Assembly: GCA_037951105.1 (NCBI GenBank)
Contig: JBAMJV010003299.1
Span: 62,001-126,000 of the forward strand
DNA from: Echinarachnius parma
Taxonomy: Eukaryota > Echinodermata > Echinoidea > Clypeasteroida > Echinarachniidae
Length of the DNA: 64,000 nt
Direction of reading: 5' to 3'
Shown: positions 3,744 to 56,780 of the stretch, piece by piece
Position numbering within the stretch: the stretch's first letter is position 1
Layout: each line of letters begins with the position of its first letter
Position numbers and translations under genes: made by a program
The notes under the pieces: generated by a model
The model's input: the letters and a program-made list of their open reading frames with translations, nothing else
Database searches by the model: none
Told to the model about the DNA's origin: nothing

Positions 3744-3833
3744 AAGTTATAATTATACGAATGACTGGAATCTTAAGCCTCCCCCATCTTAAGTTGTATT
3801 TTGGTTGTTGATTGTGTGTGTCTTTAACATTAA

Positions 3834-4528
3834 TCAAATCATCACGTATGTAGCCCCCTCTCTGTCGCTGGTCAGTAGGAATGGCTTGCTCGAATCGATG
3901 AGGGCACACTTCTGATAAGTTGACGAGTACCAGAATCCGCCGCATCCGGCTAACCCACCGCATTCCATGGCGCAAGAGAGCAGCGAACCCACGCCGTCTA
4001 TGTGCTTCATTACGCACGACGCCACAACCGAGCCCTTTCCGTGGATCATCTTGAACCCCATGCCTCTTTTACCAAGTGCACGGTTAGCTGGGGGAGATGC
4101 GTTTGGCGCGATGGTAGTTGGATTGGCTGTAGTTGGTGTGGTGGTAGAAGATTTTGTTGTGGTGGCACCGGCATTAGTGGTATAGTTGACTGTTGTTGAT
4201 CCAGGGGTCTGGGTGGTTGTAGCCGATAAGGTAGTAGAAGGTTCAGTGGTGGTGGCGGTGGTGGTGGTGGCAGTGGTTGTAGCTGGTGAGGTGGTAGAAG
4301 GCTCAGTGGTGGTGGCAGTGGTTGTAGCTGATGAGGTTGTAGAAGGTTCAGTCGTAGTGGTGGCGGCAGTGGTTGTAGCTGATGAGGTGGTAGAAGGTTC
4401 AGTGGTGGTGGTGGTCGCGGTGGTGGTGGTGGCAGCGGTCGTAGTCGTAGTGTGGATTGTTGAAACTCCCAGAGGTGTGGTAACAAAGGTAGTGGCAGTT
4501 GTTGTACCAGGGTCGAGTGATGTTGTAG
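3834..4528 (-). CDS. Terminal exon: Thr-rich mucin-like region and PAN/apple-like domain
   Basis: The acceptor TTGCAG precedes 4528. Two bases complete the codon begun by the exon at 5916. About 155 residues follow that are dominated by Thr with Ser, Pro and Ala, in repeated TTTEPSTTSSA-like blocks (about five), typical of a heavily O-glycosylated stalk. Then come about 76 residues with five cysteines: a C-x14-C-x3-C-x5-C spacing, an aromatic GGFWYSS segment and a last C before ALID, resembling PAN/apple domains. The frame ends with TGA at 3836-3834. A Gly-Lys-Arg just before the PAN-like part could be a processing site (inference). The repeats encode long open frames on the other strand and in other frames; these are shadows. 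Confidence 0.85.
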
Positions 4529-7500
4529 CTGCAATTGTATTTTGGAAAATAAATTGAAAGTAATGTAGACTATGTAATTAATTCAATATTAAACCACTGG
4601 GGGTGTTTCACGAAGATTCTAAGCTGAACTTAAAGGGATAGTTGAGTTTTGGGATAGAGGGCGCTACACAAAATATTTTTTTTGTGAGATAATGACAAAC
4701 TGAGTAACAAATTTGAAAGAGAATACAATTTTAATGACATCATAAACTTTATTTGATCAGAATCGGTTCAGAAATGGCTGAAATATCGATAATTTGGGAC
4801 CAGCCGTTAATTTTTTTGTTTAAATGCTTTCTCGTTTCAAAAATGTATAAAGGTTTTCAAATAGTTGTTGATTATCTCTCTATCTAATCACTTTTTCAAC
4901 AAAGCCTCACCTGCACAATATTTAATTCAAAATGATAGAAACCAATGATTGTTTAGAGAGCGCTCTCTTGAGTTTTAACGGCTCTTTTTGAATGATAACA
5001 GGCTTTTTACTTAGTCATTTGTAATTTTGTGTACCTTTCGAGCATGGTGGAGTTATAACTATTGATTTGTTATGTAATAGTGCAGGTTTTGGTTACTAAC
5101 TCTACCAAAACTCAATTATCCCTTTAAGTGTAGGTTGTACCTTACAATTAATGAAAGTCATTGATGGCTTGGGACTAGAACATATTCTAAAGCCAAACAA
5201 AAATACAAGTATTTGAACATTCCAACCTAAAATTATATCAATAACTTCAAGACTGCTTGACTATAAAACTATTATTAATAGTTTGTTTCTTATACGAAAA
5301 GGTACCTTTTAACATAATTTTCAAACAATGTTACACAGAAAGTTACGGCCTTAGAGTTAAGTTCAAATTTTAATATTTGTGAAACACCCCCTGGTGTGCA
5401 GCTTAGAACTCCGTCTAGCACATGTGTACACTGATAATGGTAAATATGGATTTCATCATCCCTTTTGATCCTCTTTTATGTTTTACTCACATATCGTGAG
5501 TCATTTCTAAATAAATGGCGGGGTGATGTGTTTGTGATGTACTCATCTGGGTAATAAATACATTTGGAAAAAATTGCATGGCAGAGAAATCAGTAATTCG
5601 TTTGAAGTGAAATACACCCATACATGTTTTGTTTAACCGATCCTGACTATCTTCAATGACACTATTACATGGCACACACTCGTCCATTGTAATTCAATCA
5701 CTCGTTGCTACTGAAATCATTTTGATCTTACATTCACTACATTGATTATTCTAAATTTACAAGAATACAAACATTTTAATTATAATCTCTCATTCATTTT
5801 AATTGTCTCCTTTTAAAAATATATATTAAGGAAATGTATACCAAGTTTCCTTTGCTCTTTGTAAAAAAAAAAATAAGGCACTGTCAGTAAGACCATAGAC
5901 CCCAGTTATACTTACAGGCGTTCAGCGGACTATGGCACAGGTAAAAGTGACTCGCCTCACACGATTCGGGGATCAACTCAGAATCATTCGTCACGATGAA
6001 ACAAATGCTGCTGACCTGAATAGCGTAAGGATGCAAAAGTGAAAAGAAATATATACAATTATTACCTATAAGGTTTTTGATAATGATGTTATATATGTGC
6101 TCTCGTTTCAAGCTGTTGCTTCAGAGATATTGTTGCAAATTTTGTCAATGTGTGTTATTGAACAGATTTGGAAATAAATGCATTATGATACCCATAGTGA
6201 TTTAAACACGTTACTCTCGGTCTTTTGTTTGATTACGTCGTTGATATATTCAGCTATTTTTGTTATTATTATATTAAATTAAAAACATGGCAAAAAACAG
6301 CTACGGTGAGTGAAATCATATATACGGGCGAAGGATCGTAAATCGGAAGATTCGGTCACAGCTACCGCGTATTATTTAAAGGGCAATGCAACTCAAGAAT
6401 AGAGTTTATCCTACTTGATATATCGTAATATGCCTTTTTATTATACATAAAATAACTCCGACTCAGATTTCTGCTTTGGGAGAAATATGTGAAAACTCTA
6501 TCGGGTTTACCACTATTCATGCGAACACTGGAGAAAGCCATTATTAGGTGTGTGCGGACTTATGGTCAGTGATATGCACTAATGCATTTCAATAGCATCT
6601 ATTGAAACCATTGTCTGAATACTTGTAGATGCTTTGACGAGTCCGTAAATCAGTGAAAAGCTTTTTGTTCGGCCCGTAGCACACTCGTCATAGTTTGCAA
6701 AGCATGTCGGGCAATTACAAGAACATGGCCCCCATCACCTTTTGCCGCCGTAAGAATTAGTAAAATTTTGGGTATGTTCACGTAAGGATTTCATGGGATC
6801 CAGGAGGCCAAAATTGCCAAGTTATGTATCAAATAAAATGTCTGTTCACCCTCTAAACGATAATAATAGCCGAAAGCCGTTTCATTGCCCTTTAAGACAA
6901 CAGCAGGACAACTTACAGACGGGACGCCAACGGAAGCATTGCTCGCCCAAAGTGGAAATAGATCTGCGGGGTAATTCAGGCTTTCGAGCGCGCTGACCAG
7001 TAGGTCGACGTCTTGCTGGGTTTCGAACTCGGCGATGGTGACGGCGTTACCGCCCCCTTCCTGACACCCCATCTCGGCCTCCAAGCCCCCGACGGGGGAG
7101 TCTTCGTTCAGCTCGCCCCCAGTCGCCCAGTAACAGGTGTTGCCGACTTTGAACATCCCAGCGTGTGGACAGTCTGTAAGGAGAAATGAGTTGTATAACT
7201 AAAATTAGCGTTAAACGTTTATACTTATTTCAATATTATAACAAGGCGTTTAATATTCGTTGGACGGTTCAATAATTGCACGAATTTCTTGCTACTGTTG
7301 TTTTGTATTTGGATTTTAACTAAATACAGTCAACATTGGTCAAACTTGTACTAGTACTACTACTACTACTACTACTACTACTCTAGCCTTTAGTCAAGTC
7401 TCTATATGGCTGGGAGTTCGATCCTTCATACAAGCTGTGATTGTCCCACTTGTACCAAAGATGGTAGAGCGCCGTAGGCGCAAGATAGCTCACTCTGCGG

Positions 7501-10500
7501 AAAATACGTGCTGTGGAATGAAGTACATTTTAGGTACGCACTGGGCCGAAACGGCCGCCATGTTGGTGAGCAAGATAACCCCCTCGCGCGTACGTACGTA
7601 CATGCCGCGTGCATTATCCTATTGTAAATACCGCGTAGCACTGTCGTTTGAAAAAGAAATAGATAATATGTGCATGCAGTTTCTTTTCTGAGTTACCTTT
7701 CTTTGACTTTTGGGAATTTTAAGAAAGAGAGATCAGGCCTCTTGCTTTGACGATTTGTACAATTTATTGCTGAGCAATGGGCAGATGAACGAGACTTCGA
7801 CGCCATAGTAGCGTGTGCAATACAACACTAGTCGTGTACTTCCGGGTTCGGACTTGCTCAATAACATGGCGGCGGTCGGAGCCCCATTTGCGTACATCAC
7901 GAATTTACGAGAGTAAGCCATCTTGCGCCTACAGCGCTCTACCATCTTTGCTTGTATTGTTGTACCCACAACATAGGTGTATTGATTGGCTGCCATATAG
8001 AGCCTTTACTCTTTTGAACGCGGTAATGTATTCATGAGCCGAACGTATAGCATGACTAATTCATGAGATGAGATGACTAACCAATCAGATCGCAATATAC
8101 GGTTGGCAAGAACGGTAGTGTATTCCATCATGAATAAAAGGGTTAATTTTTCTAGCAAACTTTAATTTTAGCAACAAAATAGGTACAAACAAAATTAATA
8201 CCAATAGTTTAGTAATATTCTTTTAAGTCAATACGTATATTTGTGTATACAATTTTTGATCGATCAAACTGTCCATATTTTGAAGAAAAAAATATCACTT
8301 CAGAATAACAATGTACCCTAAAGTCAAAATGATTGCGTCCACAACCTCTCGCGATCACCCTTGCTTAGCTAGCATAGTCTTTGGCGGAGACCTTAAATTG
8401 ACATTCAAGTTATTTTGAACCCATTACTGTGTACACTATCGCGTGTAGTTTCAGTATTGTGATGTAGAGTGTCTAGAAAAGAGACCATGACAAGTGAACA
8501 GCTGATCTCATAAATCAAAACAGAGAACGTGTTTTTTTCTGGAACTTGGATCGAAGAGAGGGTATGCATTGTACTTGTAGTGTATAATAGGTCTACAGCC
8601 ACAGAGCTAGAGGTAATGTGTTGTTATTAGTACATCAACTGCGATATCATGGCTTTTGTCAAGCGAATCAGTGTCAATATTATGACTATGAGGGAAAATG
8701 GAGGAGACAAAAACAAAATTAGTAAGAAATTAAGAAAGACCTGAGGCTAAGAGTTAGAAACAAACTGCAACTGCAGTTCGCATATGTTGTGTTTGTGGTA
8801 GAGATCTAGTTTTGTTCCGAAAGTATACAAGAATTGATCCACAAACAGCGAACAAACTGAACACAAAAAGTGAAACCATCATCGACTTCGATCTCTACAC
8901 ACAAAATATGCGGCATCTGTAAAGCGAGAGTTGAACTGCTTGAGAAAGAAAGAAAACAGTCTTCAACTCGGGGAGTACGAACTGAAACAGTGTATACTAA
9001 AATATGCAAGTATCCCAGGTCCAGGGCAAGCACTGGACGATGCATGCGGCCCGAGCTGCGGGCGTTGCATCAATGACAGTTCCGCTCGTTGGCGTTGCTG
9101 CTGCAGCGGTGCAACGATAATGGTCGATACACAGGCATGCAGGTGCATTTATTGCCTGGAAAATTACACTTTTGCCATATCCCGTGCAAAGACTGACAAA
9201 TTCATCCTGCTCCCTCAATAACCGCTAAACGCTGCAACTTGCAATTCTCTGAACTTCGTAATTTGTAATTTCTTAGCTGCGTATTCTATACTCTTGTCAA
9301 ACAAATTTTCACTCAAGATCGTTGGATTCGCCATCATTATCGCATAGGCCTAATACACTCAGTTATATGCGAAGTCCGAGCCGCGTAGAGGCGAGGCGAT
9401 TTTTTTGGCTATTTTGCTAAGGGGGGGGGGGGGGGGGGGGGTTGACCCAATGACGATGCGGATATTGTGTGGGTCTGGACACATGATGGCGTTTTTCTAT
9501 GCACATCACATTTTCACTTGGCAGCCCAAGGGGGGGGGGGGGGGGGGGGGTTAAACCCCCCTACACCCCCCCCCCCCCCCCCCCCGTAGATCCGCGCCTG
9601 ATAATAAAGGAAACCTTTATACTAAAATAAATCATACAAAAAGAAACGTCTTCAGAGATTGTTTGAATACATTGATTGAGGGTATTTTTTGAATTTATAG
9701 TGGTAGTGAATTCCAAAGTGTGGGGGCTGATTGTGAGAAGGGTCGATTGCCGTAGGTCTGAGTATTAGTAAGAGGGACAGTTAGAAGTTGTTGGGATGAT
9801 GACCTGAGAGTGCGTGCAGAGGTGTGACAATGAATGAGTTCAATTAAGTAAGGTGGAGATATAGTATGTTCAACTTTATAGCACATAAGAAGAATGTTAA
9901 AAATAACACGTTTTTCAACTGGTAGCCTATGCAGACTATGTAAAATGGGGGAGATTGGATCTCTTGAACGAGCACCAACAATTAATCTAGCGGCTGTATT
10001 TTGAATTATCTGAAGACGTTTCAATTCCTTGTTAGGAAGACTATATAACAGCACATTACAGTTATCAATATGTGACATAACCAATGATTTAACAAGAATT
10101 TCAATGGTTGCCCTGTTGAGATATTGTCTAATTTGTCCAATTTTCCGAATGGCTGCAATTGCCGATTGGCAGGTTTTTGTAATGTGATCAGACATTGATA
10201 GATGCTTGTCCATGATGACCCCCAGGTTGCGTACTTTGTTGACAGCAGCGATGTTCACTCCATCAACTGTGACAGCCAGAGGTGCAGAAGGAGATGGAGC
10301 GTATATTTAGGTAAAATGTATAACCTCAGTCTTGGCAGCGTTCACAAGAAGTTTGTTCATGATTGACCAAGAAGTGATGTCTTGCAAACAGTTATTGATG
10401 CGACTGATAGCGATATCTCTGTCAGTTGCCGGAAATGTCAAATATAACTGTGTATCGTCCGCATATATCATGGAACTAAGACCATGGGCTTTGATGATGT

Positions 10501-13500: not shown

Positions 13501-13669
13501 ATTGGTAGTTTGGAAATATTATATAATCATTATTTCTAGTCTGAAATGGTGCATTAGGCGCAAAAATAGGGAAAAGGAATGAAGTTTGATCTAAAAAAAA
13601 AATATTTCAACATTATGACCAACAGTGTATATTAAAATCTCCTACTACTACTACTACCACTACTACTAC

Positions 13670-13702
<33 letters not shown>

Positions 13703-22700: not shown

Positions 22701-23013
22701 CTGAAAATTTGGTGCAAATCCGTTCACCCGTTCTCTAGTTATCTTGTACACAAACAAAAAAAAAAAAAAACAAACAAACAAACAAACAAACAAACAAACA
22801 AACATACGGAACCCTTTACATAACCCCCTGCCGATTTCATCGGCGTGGGTAATAACAGCTGAGAGATATTAACGCTCATCCTAGCCCAGTGGCGTACCCA
22901 GGATTTTTTTAAGGGGGGGGTTATTTTGTCAAAAATTCCAAGCCAAGACCAAGTACCCTCAAAATTGTCGAGACCGAGACCAAGTACCTTCAAAGTTGAA
23001 AACCTCTCTCAGT

Positions 23014-23046
<33 letters not shown>

Positions 23047-47000: not shown

Positions 47001-50000
47001 AGGCACCATCCTTTATTATAATTATCATCAATATTACCATTATCATCGTCATCATCATTATCATCACAATATCATGAAAATATAATTAGAATTAAAGCAA
47101 ACATGTAAAATAAGATAGTATTTAGAATCACGATTTAGGGAAAAGATTGACAAAGTCGAGGGTGTAATATTTTTGAAGCCCTCCAAAAACACAAAATAAA
47201 AGGTATATCTATACTAATGTAACTATAAAACATAAAATAGCACTCACCATATCTGACCCATTATTGCTGTTTTGAACCGTGTAAAATGTCACACCGTCCG
47301 TGCTGTAGGTTACCTTGTAGCTCGTCACCCATTGGTCATTATCTTGACGTCCTTGTGTCGCCAAGGCAACGACTTCGTAGGTAGAAACGAGATCAACCTG
47401 GAGAGAGCAGACAATCGAAAAGTTTCCCAATGTTGATTTTACCGTAACAATAAAATGGTGTTGCCTCTGTTTGACTTTTTGTTCACAAAAAATTTTTCTA
47501 CTTGCATTGTCAAATCCACTGCTGATTTTCATGTTGGTATTTACACATTTGTAACTTATAACAACTGTGTAAAACTGACATGCATGTGTGTCCTTCAGCA
47601 AGACATTTTATCCATACTGCCTGCTCGCAATCCAGGGCCACGTTGCAGAATAAGATACAATCGATTGTAAGTTACGATTAATCGTAAGTTTCAACCAATC
47701 AGATTTGTGCATCTAGAACACGTGATCTGACTTACGATTAATTGCAACTTGCAATCGACTGTATCTCTTTCTGCAACGGGGCCCTGGTGTAGTAAATACT
47801 TGGCAGGAATGTATTCCCTAAAATGATCGAGCGCTTGACTGAGGCTGTTCGGCTAAAGCGAAGTTAATAATGCCCCGACCGCTTCGAACCCATTTTCATT
47901 TTTATTTATCATTTATCCAAAAACGTATCATTTTTAGTAGTCTATTCCATCAACACATTCAGAAAAGTAATATTATTGCAACTCGCATCACCATACCAAT
48001 GCATGTGTTTGTTGGTATTCACACGAAGACTTCATTTTGTCAAGGACAAACGTATGTTCCGTGATTATATTGTCTCATAAAGTACGCCTGAATATAACTG
48101 GCTTACTGGCAGATGTTCCGCGCATACTGAACCATAATATAAGGCAATATTGGTTCCGTCATTTTAGTGGTCGTAATGAACAATTGTTTATACGTTACAC
48201 AACCCTTGGCAACGTGTTGGGCATATATTTAATATCACATAATGGTACTTAAAATATAATTATGTATAATTATTTACTAAAGTGCCAGATTATAAAATGG
48301 ACAATTATTATAAGTAGTAGAATCCTGATTAAAAAACTAATGCCAGGAATGTAATTTCGACATGTTAAATTAATACACATTTCCACAACCGTCAAGAACA
48401 ACAAAATGTGACCTAAATTAGTATGCCGTATACCAGTAAATTCAAAAAGATATAAATGTAAGGATGACATTGAATAGACATAATTAATTGACCTCTTCAC
48501 TTACAATTTGATCTCGATGTCGATGGTACTAATTGTAGTATCTACTGCGCAAAGTATGTATGACATTTTTAATATATATCTACAAGTAACATGCATAATA
48601 GTTTTGCTAGAATTGTTTACACTTATGCTACCTGTTACCTTTCGATGCTTATTTGAATTCGTATACATAATCTAACCTGGATCCATTGGTTAGCGTCATT
48701 AGTGCCTGCGCCCCAGGCTCCCGTCCCGTTAATAGAAGCAGCCACATTTAACCGTCCCCGTCTGGCTCCATGTTGCGTACTATTCTCGCTCGAAGCCGTC
48801 AGACTCGAATCAGGGATGGCATAAGACTCAAGTCCAAGTCCTATGATCAATACATAAACCGTATAGTGCGTAATATATTGCACATCAATTCATAGATGAT
48901 TTTATCTCAACATCGGTAAATTGATAATTTTCCCAAATAATGCTAAACAGAATGCATTATTGTCATTGCGTACTCATAACCATTATTGTGTACGCATGGT
49001 TGAAATGATCCCTTGGCTTTTTTTTAATATCAAATAAAAACATTATAAAACATTGTTGTTTTCAAACATCGTTTAACAAATAATTTGAAATGTATTAATT
49101 AAAAAAATAATTACAATATAGAGAAAAGAAAATCTGAATAACACAGAGAAGATAAACAACACAAAATTAGTGTCATAGTTATATTAGTAAGAGGAAATCA
49201 ACCAGACATGAACGAATCACTGGAGATACAAGTTAGTTTGGTCGATTCCGACACAGTTACTGGATATAGAATCGAAGAGTTAATATGCCAAAATCGTTAA
49301 ACCTAAAATGGCCAGGCTATATTTGAGGTCTGTATACGTGAAACGGCCAATCACCGTGAACATTTGCACGCATGTCAAGTGAAGTGTATAATAATATTAT
49401 GATAATTTAATTTTTTTTCAAATCACTCATTTGCATGTGTATGGTAATTTTTGCAGATAAGGTTATTAATTTTATATTTTAGCCATAAATTATATATTTT
49501 TCATAATAAAGATGAGTGGTTTTCACTTTATATATTGTTTAGACTATTTGGATTATATAATACAATAATCATTTTTTGAAGGGTGAGGTTATTCCTCATG
49601 CTTGTATATATGTATTATGATATAATATAATAATGTATTATATACTATATTCGTTTGATAATGTGTTATGTATTTATTATTCTTTGAATGTTTACTTTGT
49701 ATTGTATTGATTTGTTTGGTTTCTGATATTTCTCCCAATCGAACACGTAACATTTAAACAAGACCAACTAACCAATCATATATACCTTTTAAGGTAATCT
49801 GATATTTCCATATGTTTTGTACACAAATTACGAAAAATTAACGATTTTGGGGCTGACATGCAAATACAAAAGGTCACGTGACTTCATAACGGTAGATCCG
49901 ATTTTCGGAAATGTTGTTAAAGGGGATAAAGGGGATAGAGGTTTGGTCAAACTGAATTTTAGTAACCCAAGCCTGCACCCTAACATTTCAAGGTAGAAGT

Positions 50001-53000: not shown

Positions 53001-55678
53001 AAAGTGGCCCTTTCTGATTTTTGTATTTTTGATTTATTATTATTATTTTTTTTGGGGGGGTGCATGTTATACGCACCCAACGCAACTCCCCTGGCTACAG
53101 GCCTGAATTGTAATTTGTGGGCAAAGAAGATTGTTGATATAAAATATCTCATTGCATTGATGTTGTATTAAATTGAGTTTTGTAGATGTTTAGGGTATTC
53201 TTGCTATGGTGGTGGGGGGGGGGGGGGGGGGGGTTAGTTCATGCTTATTATTCAAAACTTGTTTATTCAATACAAATTTTGAAAATAAAATTCTACTATA
53301 ATAAATCTGTCATGTATGCTTTGTGTGATTAGGTTTTTTTGTTTTGATTATCTTTTATGAATAATACAGGTAGCTGAAAATGAAGCAGTCTTCTCAGCCA
53401 TGTTAAAAAACAACCTTATTACATTCAGTTAATAACCAACTTTCCATTTACAATGTTTCACTTTCAATTAACAGATTATGACACTTGTGGAGGTGTGCTC
53501 GGTGAGCTCCCAGGCCATCCTTGCATTCGCCTCTTGGCAACCTGATGAAATGACGCCTGGCAGAACAACAGTAACCCATAACCAGAGACGAGGAGGGCGC
53601 CATGAAAGGTGAAAACTTCAATGAACAGAAGGAGAAGATCAGGGACCACATCAAAGCATTCTGCTGCTGTTCGTCTATGGCAGGAACAATACCCCAAACA
53701 AGCGATACCTGCCAGGCTCCCTTACATTTCCAGAAAATGTGCAGGCCAGTAGGCAGGAATTTTCTCGGGGAGGTGCATAATTTACCAAAACGGGACAGAG
53801 ACTACTCGCCAACAATTACGAGGCCGAGATCTTAGGCTGAGAGTCGTGTTTAACAAGCCAGTCGACTCAGACCGGTATAAAGTGGACCCGAGACCGGCAA
53901 AAAGTGGATCTTTCTGAATTTGGGGGTAGGGTACGTACGCCCCCCCCCCCCCCCCCACCCCCTGGCACCTACTGTTAAAGGCCTGTAGCCAGGAATTTTC
54001 ATGGGGAGTTGCGTAATTTACCAACACAGGACCAAGACCACTCAGCAACAGTTTCCGAGGCTGAGAGTTTATAGGCTGAGAGTCATGTAAGCCAGTTAAG
54101 ATGGTCCAGACTAATACAAAGTGGACTCGAGACTGGTAAAAAGTGGACCCGAGACCAGCAAAAAGTGGATCTTTCTGAATTTGGGGGTGGGGTACGTACG
54201 CGCCACCCCCCCCCCCCCCCCACCCATCCACTGGCATGTAGGCCTACTGTAAACAAAAACCTGTTAATTTACAAGATTGTATGGAAACTTAATTACATAC
54301 AAGTGTTTGTATGTCTTGATTAATTCACCTTTATGAGATGAGATGATGAGTAAAGCAAATTTGCAAGATTTTCAAATTTCACACGATAATAGTCTTAACT
54401 GCTTGTTTATTTTGTCAATATTAGAAATGTGCTGTTTTCATACATAGTGCTCTTCAGTTAAATAGTGAGAACATTATCATGATTGAAGTTGCCCATGCAC
54501 TTACCTTTTGTAAAATGTGTTACATTTTGATTGAAAAAAGCGTGGAGCAAAAATGTCTTGAATGATAAGATGTGAGAAGTATGTTCAACATAATGCTGGC
54601 TGTCAATGTGTTTAATGGAATAGATATGTGTGTGTTATAACTAGAATTATGATTTAAAGAGTATTGTTTCATATCAGACCATTAACAAAATGAAATTCTT
54701 TGGAAACAAAAGGTTGAGATTTTGAAATGTGGAATGACGCGTCAACATTTTAATTTTCAAAAGGCGCTAAATCCTTGTTTAATTCCAAAAGGCGCTAAAT
54801 CCCCCAAAAATTAAAAAAAACAAAAAAATATTTTAAAAAAAACTACTAAAGCAGGATTTCTTTAAACATCATTTTAATTATGTTTGGGGTATATCTTTGA
54901 ACTGTGTAAAAATCTTGCAGTTTTGTTGAAGCAAAAGTGGTCTATCAGAAAACCTTGATTTACTCGAAAACACTAAAAGTGGATTTAGCGCCTTTTGGAA
55001 TTAAACTCTTCAAATACATGTATAGGGCCTACATGTATTGTCTCTCTAAACGCAAACTGAACTATCCCTTAAAACAAAACTAAACTATCCATTTAACGTT
55101 GATCATTTTACACACACTGCTTTGAAATTTACAATTTTAGCACAGAAACGAATGTTCGAAATAAAAACCATATCGATTCAATATATTCGCACATGGACAT
55201 CGCGTTCAAAACAAATATCCGCGCTGCACATGAACTGATGCTGATTGAGCGTGTACCCACAGCCCATAGATATAAATACCTATCGAAGACAGTGAACAGG
55301 CTGTTATATTTTAGCACAATTGTGGCAGTGTGCATAAACATTCAAGTTATGTTTCTGCATTGAAAAGTAATAAACTAAAATTAAAATTAGCATCACAAAA
55401 TCCACAAAACATGCCCAGAGTCTCTAGCTATTTTGATTATTCAAACATGGGTAACAGTTTATACTTAAAAAACAATAGCTGAATATCCTGTTTTATATAC
55501 CAAACTTTTACAAATAAATGTATTAATTACCTTCCGGGGGGCCATGTCCGTAAATCTCCATTCTCACGCTGATGTACACTTCCCAGGTAACAGGGCACAC
55601 ACGCACGAAGCGGCACACCAGCGGGTTGGAGAAGGTGTTCCATACAAGAGTATCGTAATCATAATTACCTGCAAAGAC
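3834..55678 (-). CDS. F5/8C - C-type-lectin-like x4 - mucin - PAN modular protein gene (3' part)
   Basis: Fifteen exons join in frame: 55678-55531, 48840-48677, 47397-47248, 46725-46578, 44516-44469, 42704-42463, 31216-31117, 30022-29984, 29283-29051, 15718-15619, 14993-14749, 14060-13964, 7173-6917, 6015-5916 and 4528-3834. They total 2,766 nt, or 921 residues plus stop. Rough residue layout: partial F5/8C 1-49, full F5/8C 50-203, linker 204-219, lectin-like domains 220-333, 347-457, 458-571 and 572-690 (13-residue linker before the second), Thr-rich mucin-like 691-845, PAN-like 846-921. Module borders are phase 1; internal borders in the F5/8C and lectin-like domains are phase 0. The signal peptide and first exons are outside the window. 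The domains suggest a secreted adhesive or recognition protein, which is an inference. Splicing is predicted from sequence; no stop or frame break interrupts the chain. Confidence 0.8.
4595..5396. mobile_element. MITE with CACTGGGGGTGTTTCAC ends, holding a nested MITE
   Basis: The left end CACTGGGGGTGTTTCAC (4595) is mirrored at the right by GTGAAACACCCCCTGGTG (ending 5396). The inverted similarity continues inward for about 35 bp (AAGCTGAACTTAA against TTAAGTTC). No coding capacity is seen. It was later split by the TTAA element at 4634-5123. The target duplication is unclear. Confidence 0.6.
4634..5123. mobile_element. TTAA-flanked MITE (490 bp)
   Basis: TTAA copies flank it at 4630-4633 and 5124-5127. 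Terminal inverted repeats are AGGGATAGTTGAGTTTTGG and CCAAAACTCAATTATCCCT. TTAA target duplications fit the piggyBac or Kolobok superfamilies, and the ends alone do not decide which. Related sequence recurs at 39775-40060 (3' part, same orientation) and at 49917-50720 (reverse orientation, diverged), sharing phrases such as TTTCGAGCATGGTGGAGTTATA. Confidence 0.75.
5916..6015 (-). CDS. Exon 14: second half of lectin-like domain 4
   Basis: The acceptor ATTCAG and donor T|GTAAGTAT bound 100 nt. It encodes VSSICFIVTNDSELI then PESCEASHFYLC, the C2, C3 and C4 cysteines of a C-type-lectin-like fold (C-x14-C-x7-C). It enters in phase 0 from exon 13 and leaves in phase 1, joining directly to the mucin exon at 4528 with a matching phase. 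The overlapping frame at 5487-5687 is not needed to connect them. Confidence 0.85.
6917..7173 (-). CDS. Exon 13: first half of lectin-like domain 4
   Basis: The acceptor CCTTACAG precedes 7173 and the donor TCT|GTAAGT follows 6917; 257 nt. The product starts CPHAGMFKVGNTCYW (the two extra N-terminal cysteines of long-form C-type lectin domains), then has the C1 cysteine in EMGCQ, a GGNAVTIAEFETQQDVDLL helix-like stretch, and LWASN in the place of the WIG motif. An N-glycosylation site (NAS) lies at the end. The upstream half is GC-rich compared with the intron. Confidence 0.85.
7395..8010. mobile_element. Palindromic (foldback) MITE
   Basis: The left arm, about 7395-7590, and right arm, about 7850-8010, are inverted copies. 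Both contain CTCTATATGGC, AAAGATGGTAGAGCGC, TAGGCGCAAGAT and GCCGCCATGTT. Arms are about 80 percent alike by eye, so it is an old element. The open frames inside are by-products of the palindrome. The superfamily is not recognised. Confidence 0.6.
8020..9420. other. Intron sequence, no gene recognised
   Basis: Several short overlapping frames on both strands at 8806-9221 lack known motifs and start in unrelated places. A mildly GC-rich patch lies at 9010-9120. I see no conserved exon of the flanking gene here: exons 12 and 13 join in phase across it. Confidence 0.4.
9421..9597. repeat. Poly-G/poly-C flanked short repeat
   Basis: Two runs of 21 G (9421-9441 and 9530-9550) and a long C run (about 9566-9585) border about 90 bp of unique sequence, ending in GTAGATCCGCGCC. 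Ends of the type G-run plus GGATCTACG are frequent in non-autonomous elements, but no matching left terminus was found. It sits at the 3' edge of the LINE that follows. Confidence 0.4.
9602..11953 (-). pseudogene. CR1/L2-type LINE fragment (endonuclease end to 3' end), broken
   Basis: Read on the minus strand: the end of the apurinic endonuclease domain (HTSGHTLDLIISR, then LPSDHAAVICNL), a linker, then reverse transcriptase with NYRPIS, VLLDYSSAFDTI, CGVPQGSVIGPLLF and the catalytic YADD (10454-10465), and the C-terminal thumb region ending near 9695. The frame shifts at least twice (near 10,950-11,000 and about 10,280). There is no RNase H. The motifs fit the CR1/L2 part of the Jockey superclade, but the clade needs a tree. 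The 5' part is cut by the Tc1-like element at 11956 and resumes only briefly at 13630-13647. Confidence 0.8.
11956..13627. mobile_element. Palindromic Tc1/mariner-like element (1.67 kb)
   Basis: TA at 11954-11955 and 13628-13629 flanks ends CACTTTGGGTCATAATGTTG and, inverted, CACTGTTGGTCATAATGTTG. The arms (about 11956-12760 and 12850-13627) are inverted copies for about 800 bp. Each arm encodes, with stops and shifts, the N-terminal half of a Tc1-like transposase (phrases like LGRPQFTTRTNDRKLL and KCQNGAFA). The element is therefore two head-to-head 5' halves with no catalytic part, hence non-autonomous. The same family appears as a half element at 41290-41887, and a related end lies at 31689. 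Confidence 0.75.
13630..13700. repeat. LINE remnant and (TAC)n/(TAA)n microsatellite
   Basis: Positions 13630-13647 read on the minus strand give the continuation (GDFN motif) of the LINE interrupted at 11953. Directly beyond are about 50 bp of (TAC)n then (TAA)n repeats, so the rest of the LINE 5' part is missing. Confidence 0.7.
13964..14060 (-). CDS. Exon 12: second half of lectin-like domain 3
   Basis: The acceptor TTTTGCAG and donor G|GTAATA bound 97 nt. It encodes NNVCYMLTSNATLV then PGNCSEKHNFLCQ, with the C2, C3 and C4 cysteines in place and an N-glycosylation site (NAT). It enters in phase 0 and leaves in phase 1, joining exon 13 at 7173. One residue shorter than its paralogues. The donor GTAATA is weaker than the GTAAGT seen in neighbours. 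Confidence 0.82.
14749..14993 (-). CDS. Exon 11: first half of lectin-like domain 3
   Basis: The acceptor CAAACAG and donor ACC|GTAAGTGC bound 245 nt. The product starts CRNPIMIRAGDYCYF, then has the C1 cysteine in GGVCNHAG, the ITIADFESQADIDALLYEL stretch and FWARN at the WIG position, followed by NSSS. It enters in phase 1 and leaves in phase 0. It lies only about 0.6 kb from exon 10 and 0.7 kb from exon 12, so domain 3 is the most compact one in the gene. Confidence 0.85.
15619..15718 (-). CDS. Exon 10: second half of lectin-like domain 2
   Basis: The acceptor CGTTACAG and donor CTCG|GTAAAT bound 100 nt. It encodes VSGECHVLTENGSLV then SEPCNQTHYFMCQ, with C2, C3 and C4 and NGS and NQT glycosylation sites. 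It is joined in phase 0 to exon 9, about 13.3 kb upstream; that intron holds the inverted transposon pair at 17.9-28.7 kb. Confidence 0.83.
16010..16165 (+). mobile_element. SINE/LINE 3' tail with GCGCTATATAAAT motif
   Basis: The sequence contains ACTCCCCAGGGAGTGG, AAAGCGCTTAGAGATGA and GGCGCTATATAAAT followed by ATTATTAAT. This is the common 3' tail shared by many L2/CR1-mobilised SINEs of deuterostomes. A related tail (TTAGAGGCTATTATAGGCGC) occurs at 18930-18955 and inverted near 26170-26200. No tRNA-like head was found, so it may be 5' truncated. Confidence 0.5.
16280..16914. mobile_element. Hairpin MITE with TTAA target duplication
   Basis: TTAA at 16276-16279 and 16915-16918 flanks ends AGGGGCCCTGCAACCC and GGGTTGCAGGGCCCCT. 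The arms 16280-16510 and 16685-16914 are near-identical inverted copies (more than 95 percent by eye), so the insertion or its conversion is young. The 175-bp centre is unique. Matching 74- and 82-codon frames on the two strands are the same arm read twice, not genes. The superfamily is probably piggyBac-like by target site. Confidence 0.85.
17291..17807. mobile_element. Hairpin MITE with TATACCCCCGTCACATATAG ends
   Basis: The arms 17291-17498 and 17597-17807 are nearly perfect inverted copies. Each carries a direct duplication of TCCCCATTCATAAA and the phrase ATTGTATGTCCATGCATGAG. The centre, about 100 bp, contains GGTCGTGGGTC twice. It would form a long hairpin and, if transcribed, double-stranded RNA. 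The superfamily is not assigned. Confidence 0.8.
19005..20949. mobile_element. Helitron-like element copy 1 (1.95 kb)
   Basis: It begins CTAGAAGGCCGACAAAGTC and ends with a short hairpin GCCGATTTCATCGGC then GTGGGTAAT. No target duplication is seen in any of three copies. On the minus strand the element ends CTAG followed by T, like the Helitron 3' rule CTRR^T, and a stem AGGCCGAC/GTCGGCCT lies near that end. The other end does not begin TC, so the assignment is tentative. It is preceded near its hairpin end by (CAAA)n. It shares about 90 bp at one end and about 260 bp at the other with copies 2 and 3; its middle (19.1-20.7 kb) is different. Confidence 0.5.
21056..21862. mobile_element. Helitron-like element copy 2 (0.81 kb)
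   Basis: Ends as in copy 1: CTAGAAGGCCGAC at the left, GCCGATTTCATCGGCGTGGG at the right. The internal GC-rich block (TAGGCCGCTTGCTTGCGGCG) at 21199-21220 is shared with copy 3. An (A)n/(CAAA)n tract lies at 21770-21815. It was inserted in a sequence whose empty form is visible in the inverted transposon copy (near 24750-24800). Confidence 0.5.
22017..22853. mobile_element. Helitron-like element copy 3 (0.84 kb)
   Basis: Same ends and the same GC-rich block as copy 2, with a different middle section (22230-22590) and a longer (CAAA)n tract (22755-22803). No target duplication. Copies 2 and 3 share more with each other than with copy 1. Confidence 0.5.
22882..24151. mobile_element. Mutator-like TIR element with 9-bp target duplication
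   Basis: CGCTCATCC lies at 22873-22881 and 24152-24160. Ends are TAGCCTATC...ATAGGCATC and, inverted, TAGCCTATC...ATATGCGTC, with TCTGGCA also shared further in. The empty site is present in transposon copy 2 (GGATGAGCG near 24715). Nine-base duplications are typical of Mutator-like elements; no transposase is encoded. It was itself split five bases from its left end by the hAT-like element. A (TC)n microsatellite lies at 23828-23864. Confidence 0.7.
22887..23473. mobile_element. Non-autonomous hAT-like element rich in poly-G
   Basis: The 8-bp duplication TCCTAGCC (22879-22886 and 23474-23481) flanks ends CAGTGGCGTACCCAGG and CCTGGGTACGCCTATG. Eight-base duplications with CAG-GGCGTA ends fit hAT. 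Inside are runs of 32 G (23014-23045), 24 G (23139-23162) and shorter ones, and repeated phrases such as CCGAGACCAAGTACCTT. Related elements are at 52856-53105, 53747-53974 and 53979-54249. Confidence 0.8.
24830..26090 (+). pseudogene. CR1-type LINE fragment, 3' half
   Basis: The plus strand encodes the reverse transcriptase palm from CGVPQGSILGPLLF through the catalytic FADD (24979-24990), then KFLGIMIDDKLTWNEQ and the thumb region, ending near 25807. Two frameshifts (about 25,120 and 25,325) break it. The 3' UTR runs to GAATAAATTGAAATGAAAATG, followed by (ATAATA)-type repeats. It is closely similar in motif content to the LINE at 57.2-60.7 kb but 5' truncated. Confidence 0.85.
26570..28038. 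mobile_element. 1.47-kb element with about 390-bp inverted arms, nested
   Basis: TAC at 26567-26569 and 28039-28041 flanks ends TAGACCGGCAGGTCAGAGG and, inverted, TAGACCGGCAGCTCAGAGG. Arms about 26570-26960 and 27650-28038 are inverted copies. The centre has a poly-G run (27168-27192). The empty site is visible in transposon copy 1 near 18550 (GGAGGTGTTCAACCGAC). The 3-bp duplication suggests PIF/Harbinger or a relative. No transposase. Confidence 0.75.
29051..29283 (-). CDS. Exon 9: first half of lectin-like domain 2
   Basis: The acceptor TTATCAG and donor TCG|GTAAGC bound 233 nt. The product starts CSDPWTFPVDNVCHLV, has the C1 cysteine in ESTCNNW, a LDKFNSAAELQMVMDRL helix and IWVQN at the WIG position with NAT glycosylation. 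The nearer AG (TTTGCAG) would break phase, so the acceptor seven bases upstream was chosen. It enters in phase 1 and leaves in phase 0. Confidence 0.82.
29984..30022 (-). CDS. Exon 8: 13-residue linker
   Basis: A 39-nt exon between TTTTTCAG and T|GTGAGTAT, phase 1 to phase 1, encoding about TINNSIQTGPEG. It links lectin-like domains 1 and 2. It resembles the linker exon at 44469-44516 in position, phase and polar composition. Tiny exons are easily missed by predictors; RNA support would be decisive. Confidence 0.7.
30950..31045 (-). mobile_element. tRNA-derived SINE head
   Basis: The minus strand shows a B-box-like GGGTTCAATCCCC (near 30975), an anticodon-loop-like CTATCAA flanked by short pairing, and a D-arm-like GTGGTATGTTGGTTCGGAC. 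The acceptor stem does not pair well, so it is a tRNA-related repeat rather than a tRNA gene. Confidence 0.45.
31117..31216 (-). CDS. Exon 7: second half of lectin-like domain 1
   Basis: The acceptor GTTTACAG and donor ACAC|GTAAGTC bound 100 nt. It encodes ATNSCYVLTDNSELI then PESCSMTHNYICQ, almost identical in the middle to exon 14 (NDSELIPESC), so domains 1 and 4 are close paralogues here. It enters in phase 0 from exon 6, 11.2 kb upstream, and leaves in phase 1 to the linker exon 8. Confidence 0.84.
31689..31730. mobile_element. Solo Tc1-like terminus
   Basis: After TA comes CACTGTCGCCCATAAAGTTG then AATTTTTTG. It matches, inverted, the right end of the half element at 41887 (TTCCAACTTTATGGGC). 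No partner end or transposase is seen nearby, so this is a remnant. Confidence 0.5.
32133..32941. mobile_element. TTAA-flanked element I (809 bp) built of TACGTTA-like units
   Basis: TTAA at 32129-32132 and 32942-32945 flanks GGGCCGGTCATACTTACGG and, inverted, GGGCCGGTCATACTTGCGG. The interior is a degenerate minisatellite of 10-11 bp units such as CTACGCTAGA and ACGTTAAACT. The empty target is preserved in the first LINE monomer (GATCTAAGCAGAATTCCG at 31892). A second, truncated copy is at 33242-33760. Non-coding. Confidence 0.8.
32986..33807. mobile_element. TTAA-flanked element II (822 bp), itself hit by element I
   Basis: TTAA at 32982-32985 and 33808-33811 flanks AGTGACCGTAAACTCGC and, inverted, AGGGAGCGTCCGCTCGC. 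It splits the second LINE monomer between GTGAG and TTGTTCACGG; the uninterrupted form is at 31946. A truncated element I occupies 33242-33760. A small hairpin TCCGGCAAGCT/AGCTTGCCGGA lies at 33212-33235 just before it. Confidence 0.65.
33959..34762 (+). pseudogene. LINE ORF1 with one in-frame stop
   Basis: It encodes an ORF1p-type RNA-binding protein: a charged N-terminus, a coiled-coil-like middle ending NRQNDLEQYTRRNRCIRIFG, an RRM-like part, then KPIIVKLCSYRNK and a C-terminal stretch ending SDPNNL. The frame is open except for TAA at 34475-34477, after SHRV; the same frame resumes immediately. Start ATG at 33959 directly follows the monomer array. Confidence 0.75.
35112..38460 (+). pseudogene. 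LINE ORF2 (zinc finger, endonuclease, reverse transcriptase), heavily broken
   Basis: In order: a PHD-like finger CIFCRKL...MRCLHCNLWGHFNC (35133-35220), a second C-x2-C (WICDTCFFDELP, about 35450), endonuclease motifs (KVAHLNCVSLV, LSETHL, RRDRNRFGGGVATYI, LSDHYMIFCVV, about 35650-36300), then RT (PNKATGPDTVPAKL at about 36990, GVPQGSLLGPVLF at about 37535, YADD at 37628-37639). At least six frameshifts or stops, including two stops just before YADD. The PHD-like finger plus endonuclease fits certain CR1-superfamily LINEs. Much older or faster-decayed than the LINE at 57-60 kb. Confidence 0.75.
38758..39293. other. Intron stretch without recognised feature
   Basis: Between the LINE tail and the foldback element. 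Short frames at 38959-39254 have no recognised domain. Confidence 0.4.
39775..40060. mobile_element. Fragment of the TTAA MITE family of 4634-5123
   Basis: It aligns by eye with 4855-5123, including GATCTCTCTATCTAATCA, TTTTTGAATGATAACAGGC and TTTCGAGCATGGTGGAGTTA, and ends ACCCCTTTAAA. The left half is missing, lost where the foldback arm begins. Confidence 0.7.
40590..40702 (+). mobile_element. tRNA-like (SINE) stretch
   Basis: GTCCGTGGTTCGACTCC (near 40672) resembles a T arm with B box, preceded by a possible A-box region GCTTGGAACAGTATACC. Stems pair poorly. Weak evidence for a tRNA-derived SINE head. Confidence 0.3.
41290..41887. mobile_element. Half of a Tc1-like element joined to the foldback arm
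   Basis: It matches the right arm of 11956-13627: GGCGAAGGCTCC, TTTGGCATTTCC, ATGGACGTCCTA, CCTTCCTGGTGGAG and AATGAAGTTGGATCTAAC. It ends CTTTATGGGCAGCAG before TA. The minus strand encodes LTTRIDDPKLPNLACKNRKCQ-like Tc1 transposase N-terminal sequence. The other half of the element is absent; its place is taken by the 15-bp repeats. Confidence 0.7.
42210..42441. mobile_element. TA-flanked MITE (232 bp) next to a splice donor
   Basis: TA on both sides (42208-42209, 42442-42443); ends CAGTGTACCCAAGAATTATT and, inverted, CAGTGTAACCAACAACTATT, then TTGGACACC in both. It is a Tc1/mariner-type non-autonomous element. Its edge lies 21 bp from the last base of exon 6 at 42463. Confidence 0.8.
42463..42704 (-). 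CDS. Exon 6: first half of lectin-like domain 1
   Basis: The acceptor TTGTATAG and donor TCC|GTGAGT bound 242 nt. The product starts CTGPWTFQISSIPDICYF, with C1 in VEGGCTAIAPG and FWVRNSTNSS at the WIG position (two glycosylation sites). The CxxPWTF start is shared with domain 2 (exon 9). It enters in phase 1 from the linker exon 5 and leaves in phase 0. Confidence 0.83.
44469..44516 (-). CDS. Exon 5: Ser/Thr linker
   Basis: A 48-nt exon between CATGCAG and T|GTAAGTAG, phase 1 to phase 1, encoding TTTVSTSTASSPANA, a likely O-glycosylated spacer between the F5/8C module and the first lectin-like domain. Phases match exon 4 (46578) and exon 6 (42704). Confidence 0.75.
44765..45352. repeat. 298-bp tandem duplication
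   Basis: The sequence from TGCCATTATTTAATTGAAT at 44765 is repeated from 45063 with only a few differences (AAATTTGTATGATCAATAC, GTTGGGATCGCCCTTGTG in both). The last part of each copy (GTTTCTGCATTGGACAATAA) is related to 55345-55375, so the duplication uses sequence from the segment shared with the 55-kb region. Confidence 0.9.
45500..46135 (-). pseudogene. LINE 3' fragment (RT thumb region)
   Basis: A 186-codon minus-strand frame (46126-45566) has LGFLRRNLRKCPQD, YKVLVRPILEYASCVWDP, VQRHAARYV and FFPDTIRLWNSLSQE, the C-terminal domain downstream of reverse transcriptase in many LINEs. The RT core itself is absent, so it is a 5'-truncated copy. It is unbroken within the fragment. It splits a host segment whose uninterrupted counterpart is at 55,370-55,400. 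Confidence 0.8.
46178..46490. mobile_element. Putative insertion relative to duplicated segment
   Basis: About 310 bp between ATCTCTAGC and AAACATGAGTTACAGT are absent from the duplicate copy at 55,428-55,445. It contains CTCGACGTTTCGAACAGG and CATCGTCACTCCTTTC. No target duplication or family was recognised. Confidence 0.5.
46578..46725 (-). CDS. Exon 4: C-terminal third of the complete F5/8C domain
   Basis: The acceptor CTTTTTAG and donor GAAG|GTAATC bound 148 nt. It encodes VFSGNSDHHTVVWNAF, CRFVRVRPVTWHSYIS and MRMELYGHG, the conserved end of F5/8 type C (discoidin) domains including the MR-EL-G motif. It enters in phase 0 and leaves in phase 1. It is 148 nt, exactly as long as the paralogous exon at 55531. 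Confidence 0.9.
47248..47397 (-). CDS. Exon 3: middle of the complete F5/8C domain
   Basis: The acceptor CTCTCCAG and donor ATG|GTGAGTGC bound 150 nt, phase 0 to phase 0. It encodes VDLVSTYEVVALATQGRQD and DQWVTSYKVTYSTDG, the conserved TQGR and WVT-Y-YS-DG segments of F5/8C domains. Confidence 0.92.
47632..47787. mobile_element. 156-bp MITE with CCAGGGCC ends
   Basis: CCAGGGCCACGTTGCAGAAT at the left and, inverted, CCAGGGCCCCGTTGCAGAAA at the right; inverted similarity continues for about 60 bp (ATACAATCGATTG, ATTAATCGTAAG). It would fold into one hairpin. It lies in the intron between exons 2 and 3. Confidence 0.8.
48677..48840 (-). CDS. Exon 2: N-terminal third of the complete F5/8C domain
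   Basis: The acceptor GATCATAG and donor CAG|GTTAGA bound 164 nt, phase 1 to phase 0. It encodes LGLESYAIPDSSLTASSEN, ARRGRLNV, GAWGAG and NDANQWIQ, matching the start of F5/8C domains. It joins exon 3 as WIQ-VDL, the expected reading. The donor GTTAGA is non-optimal. Confidence 0.88.
48841..50791. other. Intron; diverged reverse copy of the TTAA MITE at 49917-50720
   Basis: No exon was recognised. Positions 49917-50040 and 50555-50720 resemble the reverse complement of 4634-5123 (CTACCATGCTCGAATGGTAT, AAGAGGGCGCTCTGTAA), with unrelated sequence between. Confidence 0.45.
51090..51457. mobile_element. Hairpin element with TATGACGTCAT ends
   Basis: The arms 51090-51265 and 51280-51457 are inverted copies: TATGACGTCATAAA, CAAATAATGTC, AGATATGC and CAATCAGTGTTATA occur in both. 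Ends contain the CRE-like palindrome TGACGTCA. Non-coding. It lies just upstream of the ORF at 51567. Confidence 0.7.
51567..52819 (+). CDS. Unrecognised two-exon ORF inside the 4.2-kb element
   Basis: Exon 51567-51677 (ATG at 51567, donor CCG|GTAAGT, 37 codons, starts MDERGEPVDIIYNPRIRKHN) joins in phase 0 to exon 52632-52819 (acceptor TATCAATAG, donor AC|GTAAGT). Together they give about 100 basic residues, open throughout, with NFPGLSYRDSNKLRSSC and TWSATKEKGGTLPQ segments and four cysteines or so. No domain is recognised. The next acceptor (AACAG at about 53474) leads quickly to a stop, so the 3' part is unclear or broken. It may be a transposase-associated gene or a captured host exon pair. 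Confidence 0.4.
52856..53105. mobile_element. hAT-like short element
   Basis: AATTG on both sides; ends CAGACCCGTAGCCAGGA and, inverted, CAGGCCTGTAGCCAGGGGA. The interior CTCGAGACCGGCAAAAAGTG is shared with the next two elements and resembles that of 22887-23473. Confidence 0.65.
53747..53974. mobile_element. hAT-like short element
   Basis: Ends CAGTAGGCAGGAATTTTC and, inverted, CAGTAGGTGCCAGGGGG. It has a poly-C run at 53941-53956 and shares ACCCGAGACCGGCAAAAAGT with its neighbours. It abuts the next element. Confidence 0.6.
53979..54249. mobile_element. hAT-like short element
   Basis: It begins GCCTGTAGCCAGGAATTTTC and ends with a poly-C run then CATCCACTGGC and GGCCTACTG. Internal sequence is the same as in the two preceding elements. 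Together the three suggest repeated insertion or tandem duplication of one family. Confidence 0.55.
55531..55678 (-). CDS. Exon 1 (in window): C-terminal third of an upstream F5/8C domain
   Basis: The acceptor CTTTTTAG and donor GAAG|GTAATT bound 148 nt. It encodes VFAGNYDYDTLVWNTF, CRFVRVCPVTWEVYIS and VRMEIYGHG, a paralogue of exon 4. It leaves in phase 1, joining exon 2 at 48840. Its own first two exons are not found between 55,680 and 64,000. Either they lie upstream of the window or this is a solitary duplicated exon. The frame is intact, which favours use. Confidence 0.7.
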
Positions 55679-55721
55679 CTAAAAAGAGACGGCCAAAATA
55701 TACATAATTTAAACGGATTCA

Positions 55722-56780
55722 AACATATAAGGAAACAGACCAGAAATATATAATGTGATTGAACAAGAGCAAAGAAAAAAAAGGGGTTTCCAATGGGATT
55801 TGAACCCGAGACCTCCGGATTGCTAGACCGGTGCTCTTACCGACTGAGCTATAGAAAGTCCTATGACGGCGCTCGTCCCTGGAACCCCTTAATTATTCAT
55901 TGCTCGAGTGGTCAGAAGCTATTATAGACCTTACCTAAATCCGAAGGGTGGAAAATTAACTCGGGGATATATTCGAGGGATCACCGAAGTGATGCAGCTT
56001 TTTCAAATAATTAATAAAAACATATAATGAAACTGACCAGAAATATATAACGTGATTGAAAAAGAGCAAAGAAAAATGGGATTCCAACGGGAGTTGAGCC
56101 CGAGACCTACGGATTTTCTAGACCGGTGCTCTTACCGACTTAGCTCTAGAAAACCCTATGATAGCGCTCGTCCCTGAAACCCCTTAATTCTTCATTGCTC
56201 GAGTGGTAAGAAGCTATTATAAACCTGACATAAAACAGAAGGATAGAAATCAACTTAGGGATATATGCGAGGGATCACCAAAGTGATGCAGCTTTTTAAA
56301 TAATTAATTCAAACATATAAGGAAACTGACCAGAACTATATAATATGATTGGAAAAGAGCAAAGAAAAATAGGATTCCAACGGGATTCGAACCCGAGACC
56401 TCCGGATTGCTAGACTGGTGCTCTTACCGACTGAGCTATAGAAAACCCTATGACGACGCTCGTCCCTGAAACCCCTTAATTCTTCATTGCTCGAGTTGTC
56501 AGAAGATATTATAAACTTGACATAAACCCGAAGGATGGAAATCAACATGGGGATATATGCGAGGGATCACCGAAGTGATGCAGCATTTAAACAAAATTAA
56601 TTAAAACATATAAGGAAACTGACTAGAAATATATAATGAGATTGAACAAGAGCAAACAAAAGTGAGATTCTAACGGCCTTCGAGCCCGAGACCTACGGAT
56701 TTCTAGACCGGCGTTCTTACCAACTTAATTATAAACACTATGACGGCGCTCGTGCCTGCAACCCCTTAATTCTTCATTCA
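55722..56780 (-). mobile_element. Tandem array of four tRNA-derived SINE units
   Basis: Units start near 55722, 56019, 56312 and 56604, a period of about 295 bp; the fourth is truncated. Read on the minus strand each has a tRNA head: GCTCAGTCGGTAAGAGC (D arm and A box), an anticodon loop CTAGCAA (AGC, alanine-like), and GGGTTCAAATCCC or GGGTTCGAATCCC (T arm and B box). Acceptor and T stems pair incompletely, so they are not functional tRNA genes. Each unit continues with a shared tail containing GAGGGATCACCGAAGTGATGC. Confidence 0.8.

Follow-up and report, generated by a model that had tools for sequence, protein, structure and literature searches.

A large predicted gene of F5/8C, C-type-lectin-like, mucin-like and PAN-like modules in Echinarachnius parma and the variation of its F5/8C loops

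What kind of protein is encoded by a chain of F5/8C, C-type-lectin-like, Thr-rich and PAN-like exons on the minus strand of a 64,000-nucleotide stretch of the Echinarachnius parma genome (assembly GCA_037951105.1, contig JBAMJV010003299.1, positions 62,001 to 126,000; hereafter the window), do these exons belong to a single gene, and what could its product do? The exons were found to form the 3′ part of one very large predicted gene with many paralogues, in which the first exon of the F5/8C units combines a strongly conserved framework with highly variable loops. The product is tentatively read as a secreted recognition protein, multivalent and with diversified loops, from an expanded echinoderm family, a reading in which we place a little less trust than doubt.

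Exon structure and extent of the gene

The searched genome comprises 1.2 Gb in 14,790 contigs, and the window corresponds to C3298:62001-126000. On its mitochondrial contig, cox1, tRNA-Arg, nad4L and cox2 follow one another (nad4L and cox2 recognized by eye), a gene order typical of echinoderms but not of chordates or hemichordates. All exon coordinates are given as window coordinates, where values above 64,000 lie on the same contig beyond the window. On the minus strand, the window contains in this order the end of an F5/8C domain, a whole F5/8C domain, four C-type-lectin-like domain (CTLD) units, a Thr-rich segment and a PAN-like cap, encoded by 13 exons with a single open frame of 892 amino acids. 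A first-pass annotation of the window had proposed the same module order with phase 1 at all module borders, and both are borne out by the splice model with its GT-AG introns. Its count of 15 exons and 921 residues does not hold, and two of these exons are unaccounted for. The annotated stretch, 3834..55678, is only the 3′ part of the gene: the window boundary cuts the gene, as position 55678 opens the third exon of the F5/8C unit F1, of which exons A and B lie beyond the window. Instead of two F5/8C domains, at least five were found, as more lie upstream of the window on the same contig; four are complete (F2, F1, F0 and F-1) and one is partial (F-2).

The full chain recovered by the splice model on this contig has 23 exons and encodes 1404 amino acids without internal stop over more than 135 kb. 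AG and GT were found at the expected place for every exon, and the phases match at each join of the chain. The F5/8C units consist of three exons (A, phase 1-0; B, 0-0; C, 0-1) and the CTLD-like units of two (A, 1-0; B, 0-1), and the last exon (3834-4528) carries the mucin part, the PAN-like part and the stop codon. The single exons and segments are:

139002-139151 and 138347-138494, minus strand: unit F-2, exons B and C, upstream and beyond the window
136391-136560, 132801-132950 and 129397-129544, minus strand: unit F-1, three exons, upstream and beyond the window
106920-107071, 92989-93138 and 86879-87026, minus strand: unit F0, three exons, upstream and beyond the window
75851-76020, minus strand: F1 exon A, beyond the window
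65064-65213, minus strand: F1 exon B, beyond the window
55531..55678, minus strand: F1 exon C, phase 0 in and 1 out (spliced unit, PF00754, E 1.4e-24)
48677..48840, minus strand: F2 exon A, phase 1 in and 0 out, bearing the spike 1 and spike 2 segments
47248..47397, minus strand: F2 exon B, phase 0-0 (exon alone, as 47248-47403, PF00754, E 7.7e-12)
46578..46725, minus strand: F2 exon C, phase 0 in and 1 out
42463..42704, minus strand: CTLD-like unit 4 exon A, phase 1 in and 0 out
31117..31216, minus strand: CTLD-like unit 4 exon B, phase 0 in and 1 out
29051..29283, minus strand: CTLD-like unit 3 exon A (splice chain, paralogues)
15619..15718, minus strand: CTLD-like unit 3 exon B (splice chain, paralogues)
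14749..14993, minus strand: CTLD-like unit 2 exon A (splice chain, paralogues)
13964..14060, minus strand: CTLD-like unit 2 exon B (splice chain, paralogues)
6917..7173, minus strand: CTLD-like unit 1 exon A (splice chain, paralogues)
5916..6015, minus strand: CTLD-like unit 1 exon B (splice chain, paralogues)
4071..4528, minus strand: Thr-rich mucin-like segment, 152 amino acids with 73 Thr, first part of the last exon
3834..4070, minus strand: PAN-like C-terminal cap with stop codon, 78 amino acids, same exon as the mucin
5632..43214, minus strand: four-CTLD segment absent from the paralogue on contig C10669, where its flanks meet at a single junction

The remnant of a CTLD exon A 3′ end with donor at 41998-42036 on the minus strand, inside the CTLD 4 intron, was dropped from the gene model, since exon A of CTLD 4 already has a proper donor.

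According to this model, the window contains the 3′ part of a single, very large gene of at least 23 exons and more than 135 kb. A different reading, which we regard as unlikely, is that two neighbouring genes or gene fragments are present, one with the F5/8C units and one with CTLD, mucin and PAN, or that some units are decaying copies joined only by the splice model. It would fit the introns, which reach 22 kb and of which three contain reverse-transcriptase frames, and it would also fit the fifth F5/8C unit, F-2, whose exon A was not found up to coordinate 159000. The agreement of the phases at all joins speaks against it, as do the paralogous loci described below.

The intronic retroelements were recognized by RVT_1 domains at 57692-60214 (minus strand, E 3.3e-37), 10310-11026 (minus strand, E 1.5e-23) and 24823-25137 (plus strand, E 1.5e-13). 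In addition, a tandem array with a 293-base unit (55717-56778, 3.6 copies), within which two tRNA-Ala(agc) genes were called, begins 39 bases from exon C of F1. Satellite-like tandem arrays were found at 1-703 (period 79), which is also present downstream of the copies on contigs C436 and C9989, and at 39300-39726 (period 15).

Identity of the modules

The F5/8C identity is regarded as secure at the level of profile searches. The spliced units F1, F0 and F-1 matched PF00754 with E-values of 1.4e-24, 5.1e-25 and 3.7e-29 and the partial F-2 with 2e-17, all above the curated cut-off, and the 892-amino-acid product, which includes F2, matched with a whole-protein E-value of 3.5e-30 and its best stretch at residues 63-196. 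Against the PDB, one unit gave a near full-length match to a factor V-like venom protein (7.3e-41) and to factor V (7e-38), a likeness to the C domains of factors V and VIII and the b domains of neuropilin. The domains differ from these in forming a tandem array of at least five and in the disulfide bond. Each of the four complete units has one or two Cys, none with Cys at both ends, and therefore no terminal disulfide pair. Such a bond is common among F5/8C members, and the profile does not require one.

For the CTLD-like units and the PAN-like cap, the first-pass annotation had named a lack of HMM support for the lectin or PAN calls as its own refutation, which turned out to be half true. 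In single-sequence Pfam searches, Lectin_C stayed below the cut-off for the window product and so did PAN, whereas a profile built on the CTLD copies largely recovered CTLD proteins. Lectin_C matched 6 of 10 CTLD copies at E 1 (best 1.3e-4). At E 10, the CTLD profile matched 12 PDB sequences, and 11 of these bear the name of a CTLD protein; its best match had a whole-sequence E-value of 0.0018 and 0.09 for its best single stretch. With the reversed profile as a control, two sequences were matched (best 0.49), neither of them a CTLD protein. Six Cys columns are invariant across the 10 copies, with six Cys in each CTLD of the window. The units thus appear to belong to the CTLD fold family, an assignment that rests on a profile together with the Cys framework.

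The motifs EPN, QPD and WND, by which calcium-dependent C-type lectins are recognized, were found in none of the four window CTLDs, so that 'lectin' denotes the fold only. Taken together with the short stretch from the FPFW strand to the next Cys, judged by eye, this points to a compact CTLD without a calcium site. The profile matches to CD93, snaclecs and CLEC9A covered partial stretches of the CTLD fold, and the compact window CTLDs without the three motifs differ from these proteins. Each window CTLD carries 3-5 N-glycosylation motifs.

The identity of the PAN-like cap is borderline. Its best PDB matches were two microneme proteins (E 0.027 and 0.069), which we take to be apple-domain proteins; an NCBIfam scan of the cap and two CTLDs gave only a chance match (E 0.09).

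Paralogous loci and the presence or absence of modules

The PAN exon was found at 15 loci with a DNA identity of 91-100% on the genome contigs. This number leaves out matches on C9675 (36% identity) and C4956 (27%) as other genes and includes C4945 despite its in-frame stops. Some of the 15 loci are probably allelic pairs, since their scores coincide. Among the matches listed, 13 of the 15 loci are preceded by F5/8C exons on their own contig and strand; for the PAN loci on C3348 and C3766, no F5/8C exon was among them. This repeated order and strand argues against separate neighbouring genes. The copy on C4945 (100699-100932, 96% DNA identity, about 1.5 kb from the contig end) would fit the idea of decaying copies with its in-frame stops, and is possibly decayed or misassembled. 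The distant PAN-like match on C9675 (53522-53743) lies within an open frame of 2560 codons.

At least 150 copies were obtained for each of the F5/8C exons A, B and C, which were the best 150 of 568, 578 and 633 candidates, respectively; absence from these sets is therefore weak evidence. Dense arrays on two contigs represent other F5/8C genes of the same genome, namely C2048 with at least 39 exon A matches listed and C8422 with at least 20 equal-scoring exon A matches listed, mostly at a spacing of about 2.76 kb. Contig C7666 is probably the second haplotype of the C3298 locus, judging from positions and scores: its exon C matches have scores equal to those of F1, F0, F-1 and F-2, with a spacing of 31,340, 40,824 and 8,972 bases compared to 31,342, 42,518 and 8,959 bases in C3298. 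One further exon C and two further exons B were found upstream on C7666.

Using one exon each of CTLD units 1, 2 and 3 as queries, CTLD exons were found at four loci (C3298, C436, C9989 and C4945). There are four CTLDs in the window, three were found in C436 and three in C9989, and on C4945 the queries from units 3, 2 and 1 were all matched. A counterpart of CTLD unit 4 exon A was not found in the examined stretches of C436 and C9989. Splice-site positions and phases are kept in nine exons of C436 and seven of C9989 (F5/8C and CTLD exons, excluding the acceptor of the last exon). Among the window, C436 and C9989, the ratio of amino-acid-changing to silent divergence (dN/dS) of the CTLDs ranges between 0.20 and 0.42, which indicates that the CTLD exons are under constraint. 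Conserved splice sites, phases and constraint among paralogues do not look like the product of chance.

At the locus on C10669, the mucin-PAN exon comes immediately after the last F5/8C exon, about 4 kb away, with no CTLD between. Positions 12-3037 of this contig align with window positions 46768-43214 in five blocks of 71-93% identity, and positions 3039-4900 with 5632-3778 at 95.2% identity, so that one C10669 intron unites both flanks of the window CTLD cassette at a single junction. The direct succession of the two exons in this paralogue is a further argument against two neighbouring genes. A deletion in C10669 is more parsimonious than an insertion in the window, since three other loci carry CTLDs and their silent divergence reaches 0.80. 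Alternatively, the cassette may have been gained in the window locus by conversion.

The C-terminal exon behaves differently from the CTLDs with respect to silent divergence (dS), which among the window, C436 and C9989 was 0.36-0.80 for CTLD3, 0.13-0.38 for CTLD2 and 0.14-0.25 for CTLD1, compared to 0-0.04 for PAN (same loci and C10669). For the non-coding 3′ flank, 30 non-self pieces were compared, of which 28 are 71-89% alike, one 66% and one 98%. Since PAN dS is this low while the 3′ flank has diverged, the PAN end has more likely been homogenised by conversion or is constrained at silent sites. Pure protein constraint is disfavoured as the cause of the near-identity, because silent divergence is low as well; the PAN dN/dS, where defined, was 0.57-1.46 on one or two silent changes and is little informative. 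A second reading frame is open for 109 codons across the PAN exon (3742-4068, minus strand), similarly in C10669. It may be due to chance, though silent sites there are unusually conserved.

Loop variation and the proposed function

The rates of amino-acid-changing (pN) and silent (pS) differences were compared between loops and framework of the F5/8C exons by bootstrap over columns, where the copies are related and the pairs are not independent. In exon A, one loop lies between TASS and GRLN, the other between RLN and WIQ. The sample consisted of 25 distinct copies, five from the gene and C436 and 20 among the top matches to one query. The contrast was strong: the loops had a pN of 0.266, a pS of 0.170 and a pN/pS of 1.56 (bootstrap 0.99-2.58), the framework a pN of 0.019, a pS of 0.198 and a pN/pS of 0.09 (bootstrap 0.02-0.23). 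For the five copies that were not chosen by rank, the ratio was 1.60 in the loops versus 0.19 in the framework.

The contrast in exon C (28 copies, 27 distinct with one duplicate) is suggestive, with a pN of 0.509 and a pN/pS of 1.27 (bootstrap 0.62-4.09) in the four loop columns after VTW versus a pN of 0.098 and a pN/pS of 0.48 in the framework. In exon B (26 copies), the spike-3 stretch differs from the framework in the amount of change, with a pN of 0.243 versus 0.078. Over whole exons, the dN/dS among F5/8C copies was 0.96 (A), 0.57 (B) and 0.54 (C). Single pairs scatter widely, as the last F5/8C exon C alone gave 1.67 between C9989 and the window and 0.14 between C10669 and C436.

These results suggest the following working of the protein. 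Behind an array of at least five F5/8C domains would come three or four CTLD-like domains as an optional cassette, then a Thr-rich spacer and a near-constant PAN-like cap. By analogy with homologues, each F5/8C unit would present its loops as a binding face, differing among units and paralogues on a scaffold that is held, and a single molecule could thus bear several different sites. The mucin segment, presumably O-glycosylated, would space the array from the cap, which may handle assembly or anchoring, and recombination within the phase-1 introns could swap or remove whole modules. The targets may be variable foreign glycans or surfaces, in an opsonin-like or agglutinating recognition. The first-pass annotation had likewise suggested a secreted or surface protein for recognition or adhesion, its mucin stalk placed just before a C-terminal PAN cap. 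The layout fits this, and no transmembrane or GPI (glycosylphosphatidylinositol)-like tail was seen by eye after the PAN-like end of the spliced product; the stretch it was drawn from is only the 3′ part of the gene. Secretion and glycosylation are inferred, as are the loops as binding face, the task of the cap and the biological role.

Alternatively, though we give this less credence, the product could be a protein like nectin or echinonectin, with a structural task in adhesion or in the matrix. In tube-foot or matrix secretions, the array would then bind to surfaces or to glycans of the galactose type, with the mucin hydrating and the PAN-like cap cross-linking, and the loop variation would reflect substrate breadth or relaxed constraint among redundant copies. 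According to the available excerpts, the nectin of sea urchins has six F5/8C domains and occurs in adhesive secretions (PMC10057474, PMC7037938), echinonectin is a protein of the matrix that binds galactose (PMC2527298), and the sea star mosaic protein Sfp1 joins discoidin-type with other domains, for which CTL, vWD, C8 and EGF are listed (PMC7037938). Nectin and echinonectin share with the present gene the tandem F5/8C domains in an extracellular echinoderm protein, and Sfp1 the large mosaic of discoidin-type domains and CTL. The gene differs from nectin, which consists of a signal peptide and six F5/8C domains, as CTLD, mucin and PAN-like modules follow its array; the excerpts on nectin and echinonectin mention no CTLD cassette, mucin or PAN cap, and those on nectin describe few sequence variants, compared to a large family with hypervariable loops here. 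The vWD, C8 and EGF domains of Sfp1 were not found in the 892-amino-acid product at E 1. In addition, the many F5/8C copies (at least 150 per exon) and the exon A loop pN/pS of about seventeen times that of the framework are not expected of a uniform glue. Recognition is ranked over nectin-like adhesion because a uniform adhesive needs no change of its contact loops at or above the silent rate.

An improbable further explanation is a component of gamete recognition or allorecognition, whose loops would keep pace with a rapidly evolving partner, be it on eggs, on sperm or on neighbours. The combination of a constant cap and diversified loops would suit systems of gamete or self/non-self recognition as well; an egg-coat domain (e.g. 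ZP) was not found in the 892-amino-acid product at E 1.

Several points weigh against the recognition reading. Adhesive F5/8C proteins are already known in echinoderms from the sources cited. The exon A loop ratio is only marginally above 1, so that relaxed constraint is possible, and some of the 20 of 25 exon A copies taken from the top matches to one query may be alleles; others sit on contigs where no PAN locus was found and may stem from a different F5/8C family. The loop limits are those of spikes 1 and 2 of the factor VIII C2 domain as we presume them to be, not those of a predicted structure. In exon B, the spike-3 pN/pS of 0.49 is close to that of the framework (0.41), without contrast in ratio, the exon C loop has only four columns and a wide interval, and constraint on the frameworks of both exons (0.41 and 0.48) is much weaker than in exon A. 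The CTLDs are without excess amino-acid change. For the cap, PAN_1 (PF00024) reached 20.8 bits (E 3.6e-4), below the cut-off of 21.4, its single-sequence fold prediction was of low confidence (pLDDT, the predicted local distance difference test score, 54), and none of the 29 structural matches of the predicted fold was relevant or reached E 0.001. The gene is known here from genomic sequence alone, and at its 5′ end neither exon A of F-2 nor a convincing first exon or signal peptide was found up to coordinate 159000; four candidates for a first exon with ATG and hydrophobic stretch were set aside as weak.

Neither the F5/8C-CTLD-mucin-PAN architecture nor hypervariable F5/8C loops were reported in the excerpts of open-licence literature covered, in which names with a slash are unsearchable, and the accessible part of a Holothuria glaberrima genome preprint (PMC13228809) contains nothing on these domains. 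The SpTransformer (Sp185/333) genes of sea urchins are also a diversified echinoderm family with segmental duplications. As far as the partial descriptions go, they are small two-exon genes with a known immune role, compared to a giant many-exon gene here, and neither they nor nectin, echinonectin or Sfp1 match the module order of this gene.

Echinoderms defend themselves without antibodies. In a wider and rather doubtful interpretation, the family would form a germline recognition repertoire of discoidin (F5/8C) domains, in which the units number in the hundreds, each with a conserved scaffold and hypervariable contact loops, and would be arranged in giant genes, shuffled by intron recombination and joined to a homogenised mucin-PAN constant end, like the variable and constant parts of immune receptors. 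If the recognition reading is true, the spike 1 and spike 2 loops, changing at or above the silent rate on an otherwise near-invariant exon, would represent a new kind of diversified binder. If the protein is adhesive instead, the family would add modular cassettes and a homogenised constant end to the nectin theme and would still show the presence and absence of modules through recombination in phase-1 introns.
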